Assembly (NCBI RefSeq): GCF_031455295.1
Contig: NZ_JAVDSL010000001.1
Location: forward strand, 1 to 64,000
Reading direction: 5' to 3'
Origin: Leifsonia sp. 1010
GTDB lineage: Bacteria; Actinomycetota; Actinomycetes; Actinomycetales; Microbacteriaceae
Length of the DNA: 64,000 bases
The first letter of the stretch is position 1; the number at the start of each line of letters is the position of its first letter. Below are positions 17,653 to 26,395 of the stretch, in pieces. The translations under genes were made by a program, and so were the position numbers. The notes below the pieces were generated by a model. It saw nothing but the letters and a program-made list of their open reading frames with translations, ran no database searches and was not told the DNA's origin.

Positions 17653-17949
17653 TCAGCCGCCGATGCCCTTGGCGAGCTCGCTGTCGACGTTCTGCAGAGC
17701 GTCGGCCGCCTTGGTGAGGAACTGCGACATCCCGTCGAGTCCGTTCACCGCCTCGGTGGTGCCCTTGGTGAACTGCTCGTACGAGGTGTGGAAGGCGCCG
17801 GACGCCTGGTCGGTGACGAAGCCCCCGTTCACGAGCCCGTTCACCAGATTCTGCAGCTCGTGGAGCTTCGCGGTGATGTCGTCCTTGCCCGCGATGAGGC
17901 GGTTGGCGGCATCGGTCATCTCGCCGTACGTGACGTTCATGTTGGCCAT
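17653..17949 (-). CDS. WXG100-family protein (ESAT-6-like)
   Basis: A 98-residue all-alpha protein of the WXG100 superfamily, small dimeric substrates or partners of type VII secretion. It forms two helices joined by a turn. At the turn, where WXG normally lies, the sequence is LVNGGFVTDQASGAF, so the tryptophan is replaced while the following F-T-D-x-A-S-G-A-F pattern is kept. I placed the start at 17949 because TAAGGA lies about six bases upstream; the longer frame to 18012 has no ribosome site. It is divergent from the membrane gene at 18103, sharing an intergenic region with an 18-bp palindrome. Confidence 0.88.
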   Translation of the reverse strand: MANMNVTYGEMTDAANRLIAGKDDITAKLHELQNLVNGLVNGGFVTDQASGAFHTSYEQFTKGTTEAVNGLDGMSQFLTKAADALQNVDSELAKGIGG

Positions 17950-18038
17950 GACGGTCCTTATCCCTTCGGTTCGAAAGAGGCCGTACCCCCGGGGCCGACC
18001 AGCTACGTCCACCTAACCAGGCCCGCGGAGAGGACGGA

Positions 18039-18056
18039 ATGGGGAGCACTCCCCAT
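18039..18056. promoter_or_regulatory. 18-bp palindrome, T7SS candidate operator copy 1
   Basis: ATGGGGAG-CA-CTCCCCAT is a perfect 8+2+8 palindrome. It lies between the divergent WXG100 (17949) and membrane-protein (18103) genes, centred about 55 bases before the plus-strand start. A near-identical palindrome occurs at 21828-21845, the other divergent promoter region of the locus. Confidence 0.7.
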
Positions 18057-18089
18057 GGGGCGGAGTTCACGCTCGCCGGGCCAGCGGGA

Positions 18090-18095
18090 TAGCGT
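18090..18095 (+). promoter_or_regulatory. -10 box for leaderless membrane gene
   Basis: TAGCGT ends seven bases before the ATG at 18103, and TTCACG lies 18 bases upstream of it. The spacing suggests transcription starts at or next to the start codon, consistent with no ribosome site before the gene. Confidence 0.5.
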
Positions 18096-18102
18096 GGCAG
18101 CC

Positions 18103-18885
18103 ATGCCGTCGTACAGCCCGATGAAGCCGAACCCGAGTTCCGCCGCTGCGCGCGGAACCGGGTCGCGTCCGGACCGCTCCTCGACGCCGCCGTCGCAGGC
18201 GGAACGGGCCATGCGCCCGCTCGGATACCTCCTGGTCGCCCTGGTGTGGACGGCGCTCGGAGCGGTCACGTTGGCGCTTCCCGCCGCCCTCCCCTTCGGA
18301 CTCTGGAGCACGAACCCCGACTTCAGCTCCCGCGAGTTCGTCACGGGCGGCGACACCGTGATCACCGTGCTGTTCCTCGTGTTCGCCCTCGTCGTGCTCG
18401 TCCCCCTGCTCGGGTATGCATTCGTCGCACTCCCCCTCGGGTCGGTCTCGCTCGCCGTGCTGTCGTGGACGTACGTGGCGCGGAGCCTGCGCCCGTCGTA
18501 CGCGGGCGAGCGGCTGTCGAGCACGGGATGGTCGCGTGACGTCATCGGACCGGTGACGGTCGGCAAGACGGCGCTGTCGCTGCTCCCCGTCCGGATGACG
18601 CCCTGGACGGCGTTCTGGACCGAGATCATGTTCCTCGGCTGGCGACCAGGACGCGCCGTGCTGATCGCCGGCATCCCGTACGGTCTCGCGTCGTTCCTCG
18701 TCGCCGGTTGGCTGTTCTGGCCGGTCGACCCCATCGCCGCGATCGTCTGGATCATCGTGACGGCGGCGCTCGTGGTGATCACCATCGTCTTGATCGTCCG
18801 CGAGTACCGCCGCAGGGTCAGCGGGCGGAAGGTCAGCGCACGGAAGGTCAGCGGGCCGGCTGCGCGAGAGGCGCGCGGAAGCTGA
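18103..18885 (+). CDS. multi-pass membrane protein of T7SS locus
   Basis: A 260-residue protein I do not recognise. After a hydrophilic Pro/Ser-rich start it has about five hydrophobic segments (near residues 36-62, 82-102, 104-125, 183-205 and 210-234) and a basic C-terminal tail with a short repeat (SGRKVSARKVSG). I chose the ATG at 18103, preceded by a TANNNT box at the right distance for a leaderless message; the next ATG at 18121 is the alternative. It is divergent from the WXG100 gene and its 3' end overlaps the convergent gene at 18848 by 38 bases. It could be a membrane part of the secretion apparatus, but this rests on location only. Confidence 0.8.
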   Translation: MPSYSPMKPNPSSAAARGTGSRPDRSSTPPSQAERAMRPLGYLLVALVWTALGAVTLALPAALPFGLWSTNPDFSSREFVTGGDTVITVLFLVFALVVLVPLLGYAFVALPLGSVSLAVLSWTYVARSLRPSYAGERLSSTGWSRDVIGPVTVGKTALSLLPVRMTPWTAFWTEIMFLGWRPGRAVLIAGIPYGLASFLVAGWLFWPVDPIAAIVWIIVTAALVVITIVLIVREYRRRVSGRKVSARKVSGPAAREARGS

Positions 18886-19453
18886 TCGAGTCGATCATCG
18901 CGTCGAACAGCTCCAGGTAGAGCTCCGGCGCTGTCGCCATGGGCGCGTTGATGCGCGCGTGGATGAGACGCGAGCCGTCCGGGACGGCGAAACGGTAGTC
19001 GGCCACCAGTTCGGGAGCGGACTGCTCGTCGTACGCCGTCTGCCGGACCTGCGAGCGACGCTGTACCGGTCCGATGGAGAAGTCGAGCGCGTCGTCGTCC
19101 GGGAAGCAGCGCTGAAGGTGCGTTGCGATGTCGTCGCCCGGCGCCGGTCTGGTCGGCCACTCCTCGCGCGACAGGACGATCGAGGCGGGGAACGGCACGC
19201 CCGGGAGGATCTCCATGGAGAGCGCGAGAGCGAAAGCCGAGGTCGCATCCGCGAGGGCGACCAGGTGCTCCAGCTCGGTCTTCGCCGTGCGCCGGACGCG
19301 CGCCAGCCGGTCTGCGCGACCGACCCGCTCGATCACCAGCCGTGCGATGCGCCGGGACGCCGCCTCCTCGTCGTGCAGGGGGATCATCACCCACGTGCCC
19401 GGGAAGACGATCGTGAGCTCGTCGTCGAGCGAGGTCAGCCGTGCGTCGGTCAT
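18848..19453 (-). CDS. hypothetical globular protein, T7SS locus
   Basis: A 201-residue soluble protein with no signal peptide. It opens with a strand-rich LTIVFPGTWVMIPL segment and ends with YRFAVPDGSRLIHARINAP... and a final helix. This outline (FPxxW at the start, then alternating strands and helices) resembles PsbP/LpqN and DcrB/DUF1795 folds by eye, which I cannot verify. It overlaps the upstream 206-residue gene by four bases (ATGA), and both follow the putative T7SS substrate gene. A chaperone or adaptor role is a hypothesis. Confidence 0.8.
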   Translation of the reverse strand: MTDARLTSLDDELTIVFPGTWVMIPLHDEEAASRRIARLVIERVGRADRLARVRRTAKTELEHLVALADATSAFALALSMEILPGVPFPASIVLSREEWPTRPAPGDDIATHLQRCFPDDDALDFSIGPVQRRSQVRQTAYDEQSAPELVADYRFAVPDGSRLIHARINAPMATAPELYLELFDAMIDSISFRAPLAQPAR

Positions 19454-20070
19454 GCGAACTCCCCCAGGGTGACTCGCAGCGAGTCGGCGATGGCCTGCGT
19501 GTCGGTGACCATGTCGTCGAAGCCGCCGATGAATCCCGACCGGAACACCGTGTGGAACGCCTGCGCGGAACCGACCGGGAAGATCGCGAACACCACCCGC
19601 TGCTCGAGGAGGGCGTCGCCCGCGTCGTCGTCGGCGAGCGCCGTCAGGTGCGTGAAGCCGACGAGCTCGCCGACCGCGTGGGCTGTGCGCCAGGAGCGGT
19701 AGCCGAGGGTCTCGTAGCCGGGGCGGCGTTCGGCCGCATCCGCGTCGGTCGCGGCGAGGTAGCTCTCCGGGCTGTCGTCGACCTCGAGCTGGAGGAGCTC
19801 GAACGTCTGGTAGGCGTTGAGGACGCCGGCCGACGGGATCGGGATGTACACCCGCGCGCGGGTGGCGCCGCTCGGGTCCTCGGCGTGCAGCACCTGCTGG
19901 AGGGCGCGCAGCTGGGCGATCAGGCCGGGCGCCTGCTCACCCGCGTCCAGGCCGGCCGCGAACCGCTCCGGCCAGTCCCCTCGCGGGTCCTCGCTCAGCA
20001 GTTCGACGTCGTACCAGCCCTCCGGGGCCTCGAACGTGAAGTCGACGATGTCGCGCGGGCGCAGCGTCAT
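19450..20070 (-). CDS. hypothetical globular protein, T7SS locus
   Basis: A 206-residue soluble protein with an architecture like its downstream neighbour: it starts DFTFEAPEGWYDVELL, passes through a helical section (ERFAAGLDAG...LRALQQVLHAE), then strands (ARVYIPIPSAG), and ends with VVFAIFPVGSAQAFHTVFRSG and a helix. GAGGAGG lies ten bases before the ATG. It is 15 bases downstream of the 452-residue substrate-like gene and coupled to the next gene by ATGA, so the three form one unit. I do not recognise the family. Confidence 0.8.
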   Translation of the reverse strand: MTLRPRDIVDFTFEAPEGWYDVELLSEDPRGDWPERFAAGLDAGEQAPGLIAQLRALQQVLHAEDPSGATRARVYIPIPSAGVLNAYQTFELLQLEVDDSPESYLAATDADAAERRPGYETLGYRSWRTAHAVGELVGFTHLTALADDDAGDALLEQRVVFAIFPVGSAQAFHTVFRSGFIGGFDDMVTDTQAIADSLRVTLGEFA

Positions 20071-20085
20071 ACCGGGTCAGCCTCC

Positions 20086-21444
20086 TCAGCCGTTGTGGCT
20101 CTTGTAGGTCGGAACATACTTGTCCGCCTGGCCGAGCGCGAACTTCTGCAGGTCGATGCTGGGGATCTTCGGCAGATCGGTGTGGTTGCCGCCGTCGAAC
20201 TTGTTGGCGATCTCATCCACCTTGCCCGGAACGTTGACCAGCTCGATGCCCTTGTTGATGAGCGCGGAGCCCTGGTGGTACGCGGTGACGACGGTCAGCG
20301 GGTTCACCTCGCGGGCGCCGACGTCGTGCGAGACGGCCCGCACGACGTTCTGGTCGATGCCGAGCAGGGTCCGCATCGCCTTCGCCTTGTCGGCGCCGTC
20401 CGTCACCAGCGCCTTGTACGCGGCGCGCTGGCCGGCCGCCGACTCTCCGGCGGCCTGCCAGATCTTGATCGGGTTGACGTCGTTGAGCGGCTTCTCGAAG
20501 AGCTTCTTGGTGGCCGACTTCATCAGGCGCTTGCCGATCTGCATCTTGAGCATGGCGTTCGGGCTGGTGCGCACGCCGCCCACCAGACGGGGAGCGCGGG
20601 CCAGCGCCTTGATGCGCGCGGCCTTGCCGAGGAACGCGAAGATGCGTCCGCCGAAGAGGCTCAGTGCGACGCCCACGGCCGCTCCGATGATGTCGAGGAA
20701 GGTGCCCTGGCCGGTCGCGAACTTCACGACCGCATCGACCAGCTTGATGATGGAGGCGACGAGCGCGACCACGACGAGGATCTGCCCGAGGATCGGAACC
20801 CAGGAGAGGAAGATCGCCAGGACCCCGGCGATGTCGCCGATGGTCTCGATCACATCCATGACCTTGTCCCAGAAGCCCGGGTTCTTCAGGCCGTTGTTGT
20901 GGTGGTCGACGACGTCGACGATCGCGTCGACGGCCTTCTCGGCGGCGCGATTCTTCTTGTCGCGGGCGTCGTACCAGGCCTGGTGCGCGGCCTGCAGGGC
21001 GGCGTTCGCATCCCGGGCGGCGTCGTCGGCCTTGTCCGCCGTCTTGCCGGCGGTCGCCGCGTCCTCCGGCTTCGCCTTCTGCGCGTCCGTGTGAGCGGTC
21101 GTGGCCGCCTTGTGCGCAGCATCCGCCGCATTCTGCTTCTGCTCGATCAGCGCGATGGCCTTGTCGGCGTCGTCCTGCGCCTCACGCAGTTCGGCGGCAT
21201 ACGTGATCAGGGCGTTCGCCGTCTTCGAGTAGCGGTCCTTGGCCTTGTTGATGTCTTCGGCGGTGTCCTTCGACATCTCCTGCAGCTTCGACACGGCCTG
21301 CGACTTGTAGCCGTCGAGGTCGTGGATCTTGTTGAGCTCCTTCACGGAGCGCTGGATGGCCTCGCCGATCGACTGGTAGTGCCGGGCCTTCGCCTCCAGG
21401 ACGTCGGGGTCGCCGGTCAGCGGCTGGAACTCCTTGTCGCTCAC
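20086..21444 (-). CDS. putative T7SS substrate with membrane segments
   Basis: A 452-residue protein. Its N terminus (FQPLTGDPDVLEAKARHYQS followed by a long helix) matches the pattern of actinobacterial T7SS secretion-signal domains. Residues about 35-170 are Ala-rich coiled coil, then come two hydrophobic blocks: IAGVLAIFLSWVPILGQILV with a second helix, and FLDIIGAAVGVALSLFGG. The C-terminal 170 residues are globular and match no toxin I know. The GTG start at 21444 overlaps the preceding WXG100-like stop (GTGA), so the longer frame is rejected. It may be an effector carried with its WXG100 partner and two downstream helper proteins; a structural role is also possible. Confidence 0.82.
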   Translation of the reverse strand: MSDKEFQPLTGDPDVLEAKARHYQSIGEAIQRSVKELNKIHDLDGYKSQAVSKLQEMSKDTAEDINKAKDRYSKTANALITYAAELREAQDDADKAIALIEQKQNAADAAHKAATTAHTDAQKAKPEDAATAGKTADKADDAARDANAALQAAHQAWYDARDKKNRAAEKAVDAIVDVVDHHNNGLKNPGFWDKVMDVIETIGDIAGVLAIFLSWVPILGQILVVVALVASIIKLVDAVVKFATGQGTFLDIIGAAVGVALSLFGGRIFAFLGKAARIKALARAPRLVGGVRTSPNAMLKMQIGKRLMKSATKKLFEKPLNDVNPIKIWQAAGESAAGQRAAYKALVTDGADKAKAMRTLLGIDQNVVRAVSHDVGAREVNPLTVVTAYHQGSALINKGIELVNVPGKVDEIANKFDGGNHTDLPKIPSIDLQKFALGQADKYVPTYKSHNG

Positions 21445-21743
21445 TTGTGGTCCGCACCCTTCTTCTCGTCCAGCGCCTTGGCGAGGTCGCCGTCCACCTT
21501 CACGAAGTTGTCCGCCACGGCGGCGATGACCTGTTGCACGTTCTTCACGTTCTCGGTCATCTCCTTGCGCTTCTCGTTCCACTTGTGGGCGAAGTCGCGG
21601 ACGTGGCTGTGCAGGTCGTCGTGCCCGGTCGCCTCGGCGACGGAGTCGCTGAAGTCGTCGGCGTTGTGGAACTCGCGCACGACGGCGTCAAGGTCATCGC
21701 GCAGCTGCACCAGCTCGTCCAGCTTGAGTACGAGATCGGACAC
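21441..21743 (-). CDS. WXG100-like protein
   Basis: A 100-residue helical hairpin protein. The turn region reads VRDFAHKWNEKRKEM, with the tryptophan kept but the glycine of WXG replaced (W-N-E). The charged, heptad-like helices on both sides fit the WXG100 superfamily. It starts with GTG after GGAGG and is coupled to the 452-residue gene by a GTGA overlap, as expected for a partner secreted as a heterodimer. It is divergent from the secretion ATPase. A TACGTT -10 candidate lies at 21800-21805. Confidence 0.85.
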   Translation of the reverse strand: MSDLVLKLDELVQLRDDLDAVVREFHNADDFSDSVAEATGHDDLHSHVRDFAHKWNEKRKEMTENVKNVQQVIAAVADNFVKVDGDLAKALDEKKGADHK

Positions 21744-21827
21744 TGTTCCTCCCCTTCCGGTGGCGACCGCCGGAGTCCTCCGGTCATCCTGCCTTCAGCA
21801 ACGTACCGGTGGACCAGCGGGGAAGCG

Positions 21828-21845
21828 ATGGGGAGCGGTCCCCAT
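21828..21845. promoter_or_regulatory. 18-bp palindrome, T7SS candidate operator copy 2
   Basis: ATGGGGA-GCGG-TCCCCAT lies between the divergent WXG100-like gene and the secretion ATPase. It matches the palindrome at 18039-18056 in 16 of 18 bases. Its centre is about 44 bases from the expected start of the ATPase message and about 44 from that of the opposite gene. Confidence 0.7.
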
Positions 21846-21868: not shown

Positions 21869-21874
21869 TATGGT
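21869..21874 (+). promoter_or_regulatory. -10 box for leaderless T7SS ATPase gene
   Basis: TATGGT ends six bases before the GTG at 21881. No usable ribosome site lies at normal spacing, and no good -35 is present; the palindrome at 21828-21845 lies just upstream, so an activator may take the place of the -35. Confidence 0.55.
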
Positions 21875-21880
21875 GCTGAA

Positions 21881-24800
21881 GTGCGACTGAAACTGACTCT
21901 CGCCCGCCCGTCCGGCAGCAGCGATGACATCGTCGTCACCGCCGACGCCGCCGCCAGCATCGCCGAGGTCGCCTCGACCGTCGCGCGGATCGACCCGCGG
22001 CGCACCGGACCGGTCGCCGCACCCGGCGCACTGACGCTTCGCGCCCAGCTCCCCGGCCAGGCCGATCCGCTCGTCCTGCCGCCGGATGCGCCGGTCGGCG
22101 AGGCCTGGATCGGCAGCGGCGCGACGGTCGCGCTGGCCGACGCCGGCCTCCACTACGTCTCCCCCGAACTCGGCGACGTGCCGGTCGTCGCGACGCTCCG
22201 GGTGCTCAGCGGTCCGCAGGAGGGCACGGAGTTCCCGCTGCGCGCCGGCTCGACGGTGCTCGGTCGCGACGAGTCGTGCGACATCGTGCTGCAGGATCCC
22301 CTCGTGTCGAAACGGCACGTGCGGTTCGAGGCGGGCGATGGAGTCGAGGTCGTCGACCTGGGCTCGGCGAACGGTGTCGTCGTCGACGGCGGCCTGGTGA
22401 CCCGGTTCACCGTGCGGCGGTCGGAGACGCTGCTGCTCGGCGACACCGAGGTGGAGCTCGAGGTGAAGTCGGGGTCCGAGCTGCCGGCGGCTCCGCCCAC
22501 CGCGGGCCCGGTGTTCTTCAACCGGTCGCCGCGCGTCGAGCGCCGGTACTCCGGTCAGGTGTTCCAGGCGCCCGAGGTGCCCGGGGAGAAGGATGATCCG
22601 CCCTTCCCGCTGCTCGCCATGATCACGCCGCTGCTGCTCGGCGGTGCGATGTTCTTCCTGACGCACAACCCGACCAGCCTGCTCTTCGTGCTGCTGTCGC
22701 CGGTGATGCTCGTCGGCAACTACATCAGCGGCCGCACCCGCGGCAAGCGGAAGCTCAAGAAGCAGATCGCGCTGTTCGAGCAGCGGCTCGAGGCGCTCTC
22801 CAGCAAGCTGGAGCAGGAACGCACGACGGAGGTCGAGCTGCGCCAGGCGGAGACGCCGACAACGGCGGACGCTCTGGCTGAAGCGGTGCGTCGCGGCCCG
22901 CTGCTCTGGACGCGGCGGCCGGAGCACTGGTCGTTCCTCAACCTGCAGCTGGGCCGCGGCACCATGCGCTCGCGCAATTCGGTGCAGGCCGTCGACCGCG
23001 GCGAGCTGATCGTCGAGTTCCAGGAGCGACTGGACGCGGTCATCGCCGACAACGCCATGGTCGAGGACGTCCCCGTGCTCGACAACCTGTACGAGTCCGG
23101 AGCGCTCGGCATCGCCGGTCCGGCGGACCTCATCGCGGGATCGGTGAACTCGGTGCTCGTCCAGCTCACCGCCCTGCACTCCCCCTCCGAGCTGGCGGTC
23201 GCCGCCCTCGTCTCCCCGCGCTGGTCGCGCGAGCTCGGCTGGCTGAAGTGGATGCCGCACACGTCCTCCCCGCACAGCCCGCTGGCCGGTGGTCACCTCG
23301 CCGACAGCGCGTCCTCTGCCGCCGGTGTGCTGAGTTCGCTCGAGGGGCTCGTGGAAGAGCGCCTCGCGGCCGCGAAGGCCGGCCCCCAGCGGCGCGGCGC
23401 CATGGAGCAGGAGAGCGCCGCCCTCGAGCGCGGCGCGGAGGTCGGGCGCTCGCAGACCAGCAACGGGACGCCGTCGCCGGTTCCCGCCGTGATCGTCGTC
23501 ATCTCCGACGACGTCGCCGTCGACCGCGCCCGTCTCGTCCAGCTCGCCGAGGCGGCCGCCGACGCGGGCGTCTTCCCGGTCTGGATCTCGGACGACGTCG
23601 ACCGGCTCCCGGCCGTCTGCCGCACCTTCCTGCAGCACACCGACCAGGCGCACCGTGCCCGCGCCGGTTTCGTCCGTATCGGCGAGACCGTGGAGGACGT
23701 CGTCACCGAGCCGGTCAGCGCCGCGACCGCCCTCGACTACGCCAAGCGGATGGCGCCCGTCATCGACGCCGGAGCGCTCGTCGCCGACGCCAGCGACCTG
23801 CCGCGCTCCGTGTCGCTGGTGACCCTGCTCGGACACGAGTTGGCCGAGTCGTCGAGTGCGGTGGTGGACCGCTGGCGGCAGAACGCCTCCATCCACGACC
23901 GCACCGCCGGCGCGAAACCCACACGACGCCGCCCCGGCACGCTGCGGGCGACCATCGGGTCCGCGGGCGTCGACGCCATGCACCTCGACCTGCGGACGCA
24001 GGGACCGCACGCGCTCGTGGGCGGCACCACCGGCGCCGGGAAGAGCGAATTCCTGCAGGCCTGGGTGCTCGGGATGGCGGCCGAGTACAGCCCCGACCGG
24101 GTCACCTTCCTGTTCGTGGACTACAAGGGCGGCTCCGCGTTCGCCGACTGCGTCAGCCTCCCGCACTGCGTGGGCCTCGTCACCGACCTGAGCCCGCACC
24201 TGGTGCGCCGGGCTCTCACCAGCCTCCGCGCCGAACTGCACTACCGCGAGCACCTGCTCAACCGGAAGAAGGCGAAGGACCTGCTGGAGCTGGAGAAGCG
24301 CGGCGACCCGGACAGCCCGCCCGCGCTCGTGCTCGTCATCGACGAGTTCGCCGCGTTGGTCGGTGAAGTGCCGGAGTTCGTCGACGGCGTCGTCGACATC
24401 GCCCAGCGCGGACGCTCACTCGGCATCCACCTCATCATGGCGACGCAGCGGCCGGCGGGTGTCATCAAGGACAACCTGCGCGCCAACACCAATCTCCGCA
24501 TCGCTCTGCGCATGGCCGACGAGTCGGACAGCCAGGACGTCGTGGGCGTCGCCGACGCCGCACACTTCGACCCGAGCATCCCCGGCCGCGGAATGGCGAA
24601 GACCGGACCAGGCCGACTAGTGCGGTTCCAGTCGGCCTACGCCGGCGGCTGGACCACCCGCGAGCCCGAGCGGGCGGGCGTCGAGGTCGCCGAGCTCCGC
24701 TTCGGCGGCGAGGTGCGCTGGGAGGAGGAGCGGCCCGCCGAGGAGCCGGAGCGCGACCTCGGCCCCACCGACCAGCAGCGGATGGTCGCCGCGATCGTGC

Positions 24801-26395
24801 GCGCGCAGTCGGCCGCGCACATCCCGGCTCCCCGCCGTCCGTGGCTCGACGAGCTCGCCGCCGCGTACGACCTCGGGCTGCTGCGGCAGCGCACCGACGC
24901 GGAACTGCTGCTCGGCGTGGCCGACATCCCCGACCGCCAGGAGCAGCGTCCCGTCTACTTCCAGCCGGATGTCGACGGCAACCTCGCCGTCTACGGCACC
25001 GGCGGCTCCGGCAAGTCCACCGTGCTGCGCACGCTCGCCTCCGCCGCCGCGATCACCCCGCGCGGCGGCCCCGTGCACGTGTACGGTCTGGACTTCGGTG
25101 CGGGCAGTCTGCGGATGCTGGAGAAGCTCCCGCACGTCGGGTCGATCATCCCCGGCGACGACCCGGATCGCATCATCCGGCTGTTCCGGATGCTGAAGGA
25201 GACGCTCGAAGACCGCGGGCCGCGCTTCGCCGAGGCGAACGCGTCCAACATCACCGAGTACCGATCGCTGACCGGGCGCCAGGAGGAGCCGCGCATCCTG
25301 CTTCTCGTCGACGGCTTCCCCAGCTTCCGCGAGGACTTCGAGATCCCGGCTGGACGGTCGCAATGGTACGACGTGTTCCGCGACCTGCTGGCCGACGGCC
25401 GGCGCCTCGGAATGCACGTGGCGCTGACCGGCGACCGTGCCGGCGCCGTCCCCACCGCGATCGGTTCGCTGGTTCAGCGCCGCGTCGTGCTGCGTCTGGC
25501 GGACGACGGGTACGGGATGCTCGACGTGCCCAGCGACATCCTCTCGCCCGCGTCCCCTCCCGGCCGCGCGATCGTCGATGGCTACGAGACGCAGATCGCC
25601 GTGCTCGGCGGTTCACGTGCCGTCGCGGACCAGTCGGAGGCGGTCCGACGTCTCGCGGAGGCGATGGAGCGTGCCGGCATCCCGGAGGCGCCCGTCGTCG
25701 GCTCGATGCCGAAGGAGCTAGACCCCGCGTCCCTGCCCGACAGCGTCGGCGGACAGCCCGTGCTCGGCATCGGCGACATCGACCTCGGACCGCTCGGCTT
25801 CGAGCCATCGGGGACGCTGCTCATCGCCGGTCCCCCGGCCAGCGGTCGCACCACGGCGCTCGCCGCGGTCGCGGATGCGGTGGCACGCTTCGACGCCGAG
25901 ACGCGGCTGTACTACGTGGGAAGCGCCCGGTCTCCCCTCTCCGGGTCGGGCCTGTGGACGGACCGCGCACTCACGCCCGCGGAGGCCGCCGAGCTCGCGA
26001 AGGACCTCACCGTCGCCATCGCCGACCCCGACACGGAGGGCCGGATCGCGGTGTTCGTGGAGAGCATCGGCGACTTCCTGCAGACGCCCGCCGACTCCCC
26101 TATCGTGGAGCTGATCCGCGCCATCCGGCGCAGCGATCACCTGCTCGTCGCGGAGGCGGAGTCGAGCGCGTGGGGCACGTCGTGGCCGCTGCTCGGCGAG
26201 GTGAAGAACGGCCGGCGCGGGCTGCTGCTGCAGCCAGACTCGGTCGAGGGCGACATCCTGCTGAAGACGCCGCTGCCGCGCCTGAACCGGTCCGAGTTCC
26301 CTCCGGGACGCGGTGTGTTCATCCAGAAGGGCGGCTTCACGCGGGTGCAGGTGCCGCTGGTGGATGCGTCCCTCCCGGCTCGCGCCCGCGTCTGA
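21881..26395 (+). CDS. eccC: FHA-FtsK/SpoIIIE type VII secretion ATPase (EssC/EccC-like)
   Basis: A 1504-residue motor ATPase of type VII secretion. In order: a beta-rich N-terminal domain, an FHA domain (about residues 115-190, with LGRDESCDIVLQDPLVSKRHV), two membrane helices (about 242-285), and three FtsK-like ATPase modules. Module 1 has an intact Walker A GGTTGAGKSE (about 715) and Walker B VLVIDEF (about 817). Module 2 has GTGGSGKST (about 1039) but a degenerate LLLVDGF. Module 3 has GPPASGRTT (about 1316), with Arg for the Walker lysine. The FHA N terminus resembles Firmicutes EssC more than mycobacterial EccC. I start at GTG 21881; the frame is open 24 codons further up without a ribosome site. 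Confidence 0.92.
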   Translation: MRLKLTLARPSGSSDDIVVTADAAASIAEVASTVARIDPRRTGPVAAPGALTLRAQLPGQADPLVLPPDAPVGEAWIGSGATVALADAGLHYVSPELGDVPVVATLRVLSGPQEGTEFPLRAGSTVLGRDESCDIVLQDPLVSKRHVRFEAGDGVEVVDLGSANGVVVDGGLVTRFTVRRSETLLLGDTEVELEVKSGSELPAAPPTAGPVFFNRSPRVERRYSGQVFQAPEVPGEKDDPPFPLLAMITPLLLGGAMFFLTHNPTSLLFVLLSPVMLVGNYISGRTRGKRKLKKQIALFEQRLEALSSKLEQERTTEVELRQAETPTTADALAEAVRRGPLLWTRRPEHWSFLNLQLGRGTMRSRNSVQAVDRGELIVEFQERLDAVIADNAMVEDVPVLDNLYESGALGIAGPADLIAGSVNSVLVQLTALHSPSELAVAALVSPRWSRELGWLKWMPHTSSPHSPLAGGHLADSASSAAGVLSSLEGLVEERLAAAKAGPQRRGAMEQESAALERGAEVGRSQTSNGTPSPVPAVIVVISDDVAVDRARLVQLAEAAADAGVFPVWISDDVDRLPAVCRTFLQHTDQAHRARAGFVRIGETVEDVVTEPVSAATALDYAKRMAPVIDAGALVADASDLPRSVSLVTLLGHELAESSSAVVDRWRQNASIHDRTAGAKPTRRRPGTLRATIGSAGVDAMHLDLRTQGPHALVGGTTGAGKSEFLQAWVLGMAAEYSPDRVTFLFVDYKGGSAFADCVSLPHCVGLVTDLSPHLVRRALTSLRAELHYREHLLNRKKAKDLLELEKRGDPDSPPALVLVIDEFAALVGEVPEFVDGVVDIAQRGRSLGIHLIMATQRPAGVIKDNLRANTNLRIALRMADESDSQDVVGVADAAHFDPSIPGRGMAKTGPGRLVRFQSAYAGGWTTREPERAGVEVAELRFGGEVRWEEERPAEEPERDLGPTDQQRMVAAIVRAQSAAHIPAPRRPWLDELAAAYDLGLLRQRTDAELLLGVADIPDRQEQRPVYFQPDVDGNLAVYGTGGSGKSTVLRTLASAAAITPRGGPVHVYGLDFGAGSLRMLEKLPHVGSIIPGDDPDRIIRLFRMLKETLEDRGPRFAEANASNITEYRSLTGRQEEPRILLLVDGFPSFREDFEIPAGRSQWYDVFRDLLADGRRLGMHVALTGDRAGAVPTAIGSLVQRRVVLRLADDGYGMLDVPSDILSPASPPGRAIVDGYETQIAVLGGSRAVADQSEAVRRLAEAMERAGIPEAPVVGSMPKELDPASLPDSVGGQPVLGIGDIDLGPLGFEPSGTLLIAGPPASGRTTALAAVADAVARFDAETRLYYVGSARSPLSGSGLWTDRALTPAEAAELAKDLTVAIADPDTEGRIAVFVESIGDFLQTPADSPIVELIRAIRRSDHLLVAEAESSAWGTSWPLLGEVKNGRRGLLLQPDSVEGDILLKTPLPRLNRSEFPPGRGVFIQKGGFTRVQVPLVDASLPARARV

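Follow-up and report, generated by a model that had tools for sequence, protein, structure and literature searches.

We analysed a 64,000-nucleotide stretch of Leifsonia sp. 1010 (positions 1 to 64,000 of contig NZ_JAVDSL010000001.1; the window), which carries a type VII secretion system (T7SS) locus with a near-identical palindrome in each of its two divergent promoter regions. The original prediction, made from the window alone, took these palindromes for the binding site of an activator through which secretion ATPase, WXG100 proteins, substrate and membrane protein are coupled in one regulon, with the regulator encoded elsewhere. Both palindromes are present as it had described them, read directly in the window, and stand among the following features:

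17653..17949, minus strand: WXG100 protein gene (Pfam WXG100, 3e-15)
18011..18016, minus strand: TTAGGT, a possible but imperfect -10 facing the WXG100 gene at 22 bp from site 1; not a TAnnnT match
18039..18056, no strand: site 1, predicted palindromic operator ATGGGGAGCACTCCCCAT, between the WXG100 gene (minus) and the membrane-protein gene (plus); motif also in relatives
18090..18095, plus strand: TAGCGT, probable -10 box for the membrane-protein gene, spaced 33 bp from site 1 and so a helical turn more distant; relatives show a second peak at 32-33 bp
18103..18885, plus strand: 260-amino-acid protein, membrane-like by eye, no family (no Pfam or NCBIfam match)
18848..19453, minus strand: 201-amino-acid protein of the substrate operon, no family (no Pfam match)
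19450..20070, minus strand: 206-amino-acid protein of the substrate operon, no family (no Pfam match)
20086..21444, minus strand: candidate substrate with T7SS_signal domain (Pfam T7SS_signal, 5.5e-09)
21441..21743, minus strand: small Esx-like protein (100 amino acids), first gene of the minus-strand operon (no Pfam match; weak WXG100_ESAT6, E 0.07)
21800..21805, minus strand: TACGTT, probable -10 box for the operon on this strand, at 22 bp from site 2
21828..21845, no strand: site 2, predicted palindromic operator ATGGGGAGCGGTCCCCAT, between the small Esx-like gene (minus) and eccC (plus); motif also in relatives
21869..21874, plus strand: probable -10, TATGGT, of eccC, 23 bp from site 2
21881..26395, plus strand: eccC/essC-type secretion ATPase with FHA domain, TsdC-like (Pfam FHA, 7e-12; FtsK_SpoIIIE, 3e-53)

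If transcription starts about 7 bp past each -10, the site centres lie near -44, -44 and -55, as had been proposed. Given the imperfect minus-strand box near it, site 1 may act on the WXG100 gene as well. The eccC mRNA is probably leaderless, since its start codon, GTG at 21881, falls only 7 bp beyond the -10. The membrane-protein gene (-10 at 18090, start at 18103) also begins about 7 bp after its box, and a leaderless mRNA is likely there too. In one relative (G026, C1:1498912-1503422) eccC appears as two overlapping open frames, both 92% identical, which could mean a split gene or a sequencing error.

The palindrome is rare in its tight form. Sites 1 and 2 are the sole matches to ATGGGGAGCNNTCCCCAT at up to 3 mismatches in the window, in agreement with the original prediction, which had noticed no others there; they give 4 rows over both strands, a number reached by none of 100 dinucleotide shuffles (mean 0.39). 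Genome-wide (seven contigs, 3.88 Mb), TGGGGAN4TCCCCA has only 4 exact copies, and the reversed control has none, so the motif is not abundant and randomly placed. Once 2 mismatches are allowed, the motif gives 34 rows and the control 17, a smaller excess, which limits specificity to the tight form. Besides the two window sites, the exact copies lie at C2:222459 and C3:329360. The former shares the outer A and T with the window sites; the latter has neither these nor a TAnnnT box in register and is therefore probably a chance match. We did not treat it as a functional site; its surroundings look plasmid- or phage-like by eye.

The third site (C2:222458-222475) adjoins a candidate for the regulator that had been placed outside the window. 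This gene, which we call REG (C2:221657-222418, about 253 codons), lies in the same genome directly behind a Ser/Thr kinase gene, and the site begins about 40 bp past its stop codon, ahead of a gene for a 1757-amino-acid protein with Big_9 and fn3 domains (FN3). By Pfam, the genes 5' of REG encode a PP2C phosphatase, an FHA protein (orf428) and the Ser/Thr kinase, and those 3' of FN3 a MoxR-type AAA ATPase, a DUF58 protein, a transglutaminase-core/TgpA protein and an FHA protein. Predicted models of REG have an N-terminal FHA domain and a C-terminal helix-turn-helix (HTH), the latter of GerE-type fold. No curated GerE sequence model matches REG, the only hit being HTH_8 below its cut-off (E 0.011), and we therefore call it LuxR-like by fold and do not file it as a sequence member. 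The phosphothreonine-binding pocket of FHA domains has a consensus of conserved Gly-Arg, Ser, His and Asn; aligned by eye to that consensus, the pocket of REG keeps the Gly-Arg invariant, and the other positions seem replaced by His and Phe. Profile comparison of the FHA domains of REG and EccC gave no meaningful match, and a sequence search of solved structures found no relative (best E 0.78).

Two side observations concern copies of these genes. The window genome has a second kinase/PP2C/FN3/MoxR cluster (L263, G000:C2:446000-462000) without REG and without the palindrome; its FN3 protein is about 35% identical, and FN3 proteins of similar identity also occur in REG-less genomes of the genus. 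Two REG matches per genome are found at L087 and in G099, G212, G296, G359 and G384, the second copy being 59% identical in G036 and 48% in those five genomes; the two copies perhaps have different targets.

The motif accompanies REG in relatives. We compared 110 REG loci (2.1 Mb in all), counting those with an identical 300-base stretch only once, and found 76 sites at up to 1 mismatch in 67 of them. The reversed pattern and one shifted control gave 0, and three other palindromes gave 2, 0 and 1; even at up to 2 mismatches the reversed pattern had no match in these loci. Sites stand ahead of FN3, PP2C and WXG100 genes or beside EccC genes, which contradicts the possibility that the motif is not conserved upstream of eccC and WXG100 genes (gene calls come from a simple GC3 script, and some starts, labels and strands are wrong). 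Two other approaches were set aside: de novo arm counts in the 350 bp after REG, which were swamped by coding sequence, and a logo of the site arms, which are conserved by construction. De novo, perfect 7-bp arms around a 4-bp spacer turned up in 16 of 109 loci, where 3.4 were expected; ATGGGGA accounted for only 9 of the 16, and counts with spacers of 0, 2, 6 and 8 were raised too. In several genera EccC or WXG100 genes share one locus with kinase/REG-cluster genes (L083, L085, L088, L090, L094, L095, L097, L098, L111, L116, L173/L265 and L201); the T7SS locus and the kinase/REG cluster of the window genome are therefore probably parts of one system.

The sites stand in a fixed relation to promoters. 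We oriented sites, made unique by identical 138-base context (119), by their downstream gene to give 122 promoters, site 1 not included; the set was built on 167 sequences, 40 of which (L010-L029, L220-L239) were chosen because they bear the motif. A TAnnnT box starts 21-25 bp past the site in 83 of the 122 promoters and 31-34 bp past it in 13 more, with 0-2 promoters at each offset other than 21-25 and 32. After downstream sequences at least 70% identical were collapsed, 66 and 13 of 104 promoters remained in register, against an off-register mean of 0.15 per offset, and among label-promoter pairs with a recognised target the -10 was in register in 76 of 83. The 83 boxes read roughly TGTTAGCGT around the fixed letters, an extended -10, and the six bases at the expected -35 position are GC-rich. 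With starts deduced from the -10, the operators are inverted repeats near -42, as for LuxR/NarL regulators, which would suit REG as the binder. The spacing suggests a class II activator that takes the place of the -35 element, because the distance to the -10 is tight, a second class lies one helical turn away and the -35 region is GC-rich. REG might instead be a repressor that, bound to the palindrome, blocks the -35 region and keeps the secretion genes silent until it is released by a signal, in the manner of EspM at whiB6. An operator in the -35 region can serve for repression, and EspM, an FHA and HTH regulator of T7SS, is needed for whiB6 repression (PMC7002343). A repressor site, however, would need neither fixed spacing nor replacement of the -35 element, and the same three features of geometry suit an activator; we consider repression unlikely.

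Sites and REG also occur together across genomes. In the genus sample, REG is present in 16 of 28 genomes, each of which has 2-4 exact sites, and the other 12 have 0 or 1. Across the family, Microbacteriaceae (398 genomes, 85 genera), REG is found in 148 genomes and 38 genera, and exact sites number 323 in the REG genomes versus 31 in the 250 without it; the reversed pattern was found in 11 genomes with REG and 14 without. An EccC-like ATPase (E at most 1e-150) is encoded in 152 family genomes, 120 with REG (286 sites) and 32 without (7 sites); a further 28 genomes have REG without EccC at that threshold (37 sites). When REG labels were shuffled within genera (21 mixed genera), the observed 153 sites were never reached in 20,000 trials. 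REG thus tracks the motif both across and within genera. Seventeen REG-less loci with EccC or a kinase/FN3 cluster, drawn from 15 of the 32 genomes with EccC and no REG, had no site at up to 2 mismatches; some of these genomes do hold one exact site elsewhere.

A different regulator could bind the palindrome, REG merely travelling with its gene cluster: REG usually adjoins kinase, FN3 and PP2C genes, so these correlate with the sites as well. Two genomes speak against this. G079 and G148 keep PP2C, orf428, kinase (69-70% identity), FN3, MoxR and DUF58 in the usual order, with REG missing and no palindrome in the loci read; G079 has one exact site elsewhere in its genome, not located. Moreover, of the cluster proteins that were scanned, none but REG is predicted to contain a DNA-binding domain. 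We regard another binder as improbable, somewhat more so than repression by REG. A third genome, G019, has an eccC 83% identical to that of the window, no REG and no sites. We did not accept it as a clean natural experiment, and G079 and G148 weigh more, because its WXG100, substrate and membrane-protein genes were not found in the 12.5 kb read, the rest of the genome not having been searched.

The weight of G079 and G148 is itself reduced by G201, their REG-bearing genus-mate, which has a T7SS of another lineage, its EccC being 51% identical to that of the window versus 64-65% in G079 and G148. Some further observations limit the link between REG and palindrome. Of the 148 REG genomes, 28 lack any exact site. 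Outside the family the distribution of REG is patchy: in the phylum sample it occurs in 16 of 396 genomes, 10 of these outside the family. There, a site at up to 1 mismatch was present in 5 of 11 fetched loci (L251, L253, L255, L257 and L258), and 6 of 10 sites at up to 2 mismatches lack the -10 register in both directions, so that the register mostly fails.

Could the palindrome act as RNA? If transcribed, its 7-bp arms with their 4-base loop could form the stem of a hairpin that acts as terminator or attenuator, and site 3 follows the REG stop codon closely. This is very improbable, because the -10 boxes sit downstream of the sites, in both directions at site 2, placing the palindrome upstream of the transcription starts; nor does a T run follow any of the genome's three sites. 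That conservation merely reflects shared ancestry or chance is scarcely credible: close species do share flanks, and loci were collapsed only when identical, but the within-genus permutation, the missing reversed pattern in the 110 loci and the persistence of the -10 register after flanks were collapsed already contradict it.

The regulon appears wider than had been seen from the window: the kinase/FN3/PP2C cluster seems to belong to it, as do some remote genes in relatives. We read 23 sites in three genomes chosen for many sites, G354 (10), G407 (9) and G165 (4 of 6). The main secretion locus accounts for five, of which two are in L221 and the other three, in L233, precede a WXG100-like pair next to EccC. 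Five of the 18 remote sites precede genes for proteins with a WXG-like start (L230, L232, L236, L238 and L239), of which only that of L238 has a Pfam WXG100 match; L236 has a calpain domain and L232 a sub-threshold nuclease-like match. At another five the gene shows a lipobox by eye (L222-L226), and the remainder stand at a DUF6177 protein (L229), membrane-like proteins (L227, L237), and uncharacterised genes or none. Several G354 sites have no in-register -10 and may reflect chance or another use. The five proteins with WXG-like starts have variable C-termini and are candidate exported effectors encoded far from the secretion locus. The motif thus flags candidate exported proteins at a distance, one with a calpain-like protease domain.

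We conclude that the palindrome is very probably where an activator, not described until now, binds to turn on the secretion machine and its envelope partners together. The basis is computed: site conservation, spacing, REG co-occurrence and predicted folds. The first three also support the proposed coupling of ATPase, WXG100 proteins, substrate and membrane protein, with binding and activation as inferred steps. The best explanation, and in our judgement a likely one, is that REG activates a T7SSd-like secretion regulon through this operator. REG would probably bind as a dimer, each HTH contacting one half-site; the dimer would sit with its centre near -44 (sometimes -54), at the usual position of the -35, and would aid RNA polymerase at extended -10 promoters resembling TGTTAGCGT. 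Under its joint control would be the secretion ATPase, the WXG100/substrate operon and the FN3-MoxR-DUF58-transglutaminase operon, all turned on together. The PP2C operon would be added in relatives, where remote genes for WXG-like proteins and lipoproteins probably belong in part as well. Its FHA domain may read the kinase/phosphatase state or assembly of the machine. We put forward more tentatively, as quite possible, that REG founds a class of FHA-LuxR activators that read the kinase/PP2C or assembled-machine state and give a single transcriptional order to a whole T7SSd-like system: ATPase, WXG100 partners, the Ig-like envelope protein with MoxR, DUF58 and transglutaminase, and remote effectors. 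If so, a single machine would comprise both the PFNA-type cluster and the type VII system, and the palindrome would serve to find effectors across a genome.

Among known regulators, EspM of mycobacterial ESX-1 is like REG in having an N-terminal FHA domain and a C-terminal HTH, in regulating T7SS genes and in being encoded beside a T7SS locus (PMC7002343, PMC11005418). The two differ in that EspM is required for whiB6 to be repressed, whereas the geometry of the REG sites fits activation and REG itself is tied to kinase/FN3 genes. Neither paper uses the words palindrome and motif in its main text. The EspM model of NCBIfam, NF052403, does not match REG at E 0.1, and we do not file REG as EspM. 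EmbR, an FHA-containing transcription factor of M. tuberculosis, is unlike REG in having an OmpR-type wing, a BTAD and its FHA domain at the C-terminal end; it is not known to have a T7SS regulon. PimM, a PAS-LuxR protein, resembles the REG system in its LuxR-type HTH and in a palindrome, CTVGGGAWWTCCCBAG, that has GGGA/TCCC arms and lies in the -35 region, and differs in having PAS instead of FHA, a 2-base instead of a 4-base centre, and antibiotic clusters under its control (PMC9774167).

The secretion system itself shares with T7SSd an FHA-FtsK ATPase, WXG100 proteins, a Ser/Thr kinase and a large Ig-like protein (PMC11217815). The window genome has a WXG100 protein and an FHA-FtsK ATPase nearer EssC (505 bits) than EccC (340 bits), both below the NCBIfam cut-offs (778 for EssC, 509 for EccCa), as well as the kinase and the Big_9/fn3 protein, unlinked here and in one locus with EccC/WXG100 in some relatives. 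The bifidobacterial PFNA operon comprises kinase, FN3, AAA-ATPase, DUF58, transglutaminase, PP2C and FHA genes (PMC8430577), which is the gene set of the REG cluster; the kinase and Ig-like protein of that cluster overlap the T7SSd core (PMC8430577, PMC11217815). The cytokine-binding FN3 protein of PFNA may be of the same kind as the T7SSd component TsdI (PMC8430577, PMC11217815). In their accessible portions neither account describes an FHA-LuxR regulator or an operator (PMC11217815, PMC8430577), and type VII secretion has 0 occurrences in that of the PFNA paper (PMC8430577). Searches of open-access literature, judged by their listings, brought up no FHA-LuxR regulator of T7SS, no such palindrome and nothing on the regulation of T7SSd-like systems. 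Known in kind are activators of LuxR type whose palindromes lie in the -35 region (PimM, PMC9774167) and an FHA-HTH regulator of T7SS (EspM). What is new is a candidate regulator, its promoter architecture, and a PFNA-like cluster and a T7SSd-like system under one operator. Operator, regulator and promoter geometry tie the secretion ATPase and WXG100 proteins to a PFNA-like kinase/phosphatase/Ig-protein cluster, and this link allows a direct test of whether the two are one system.

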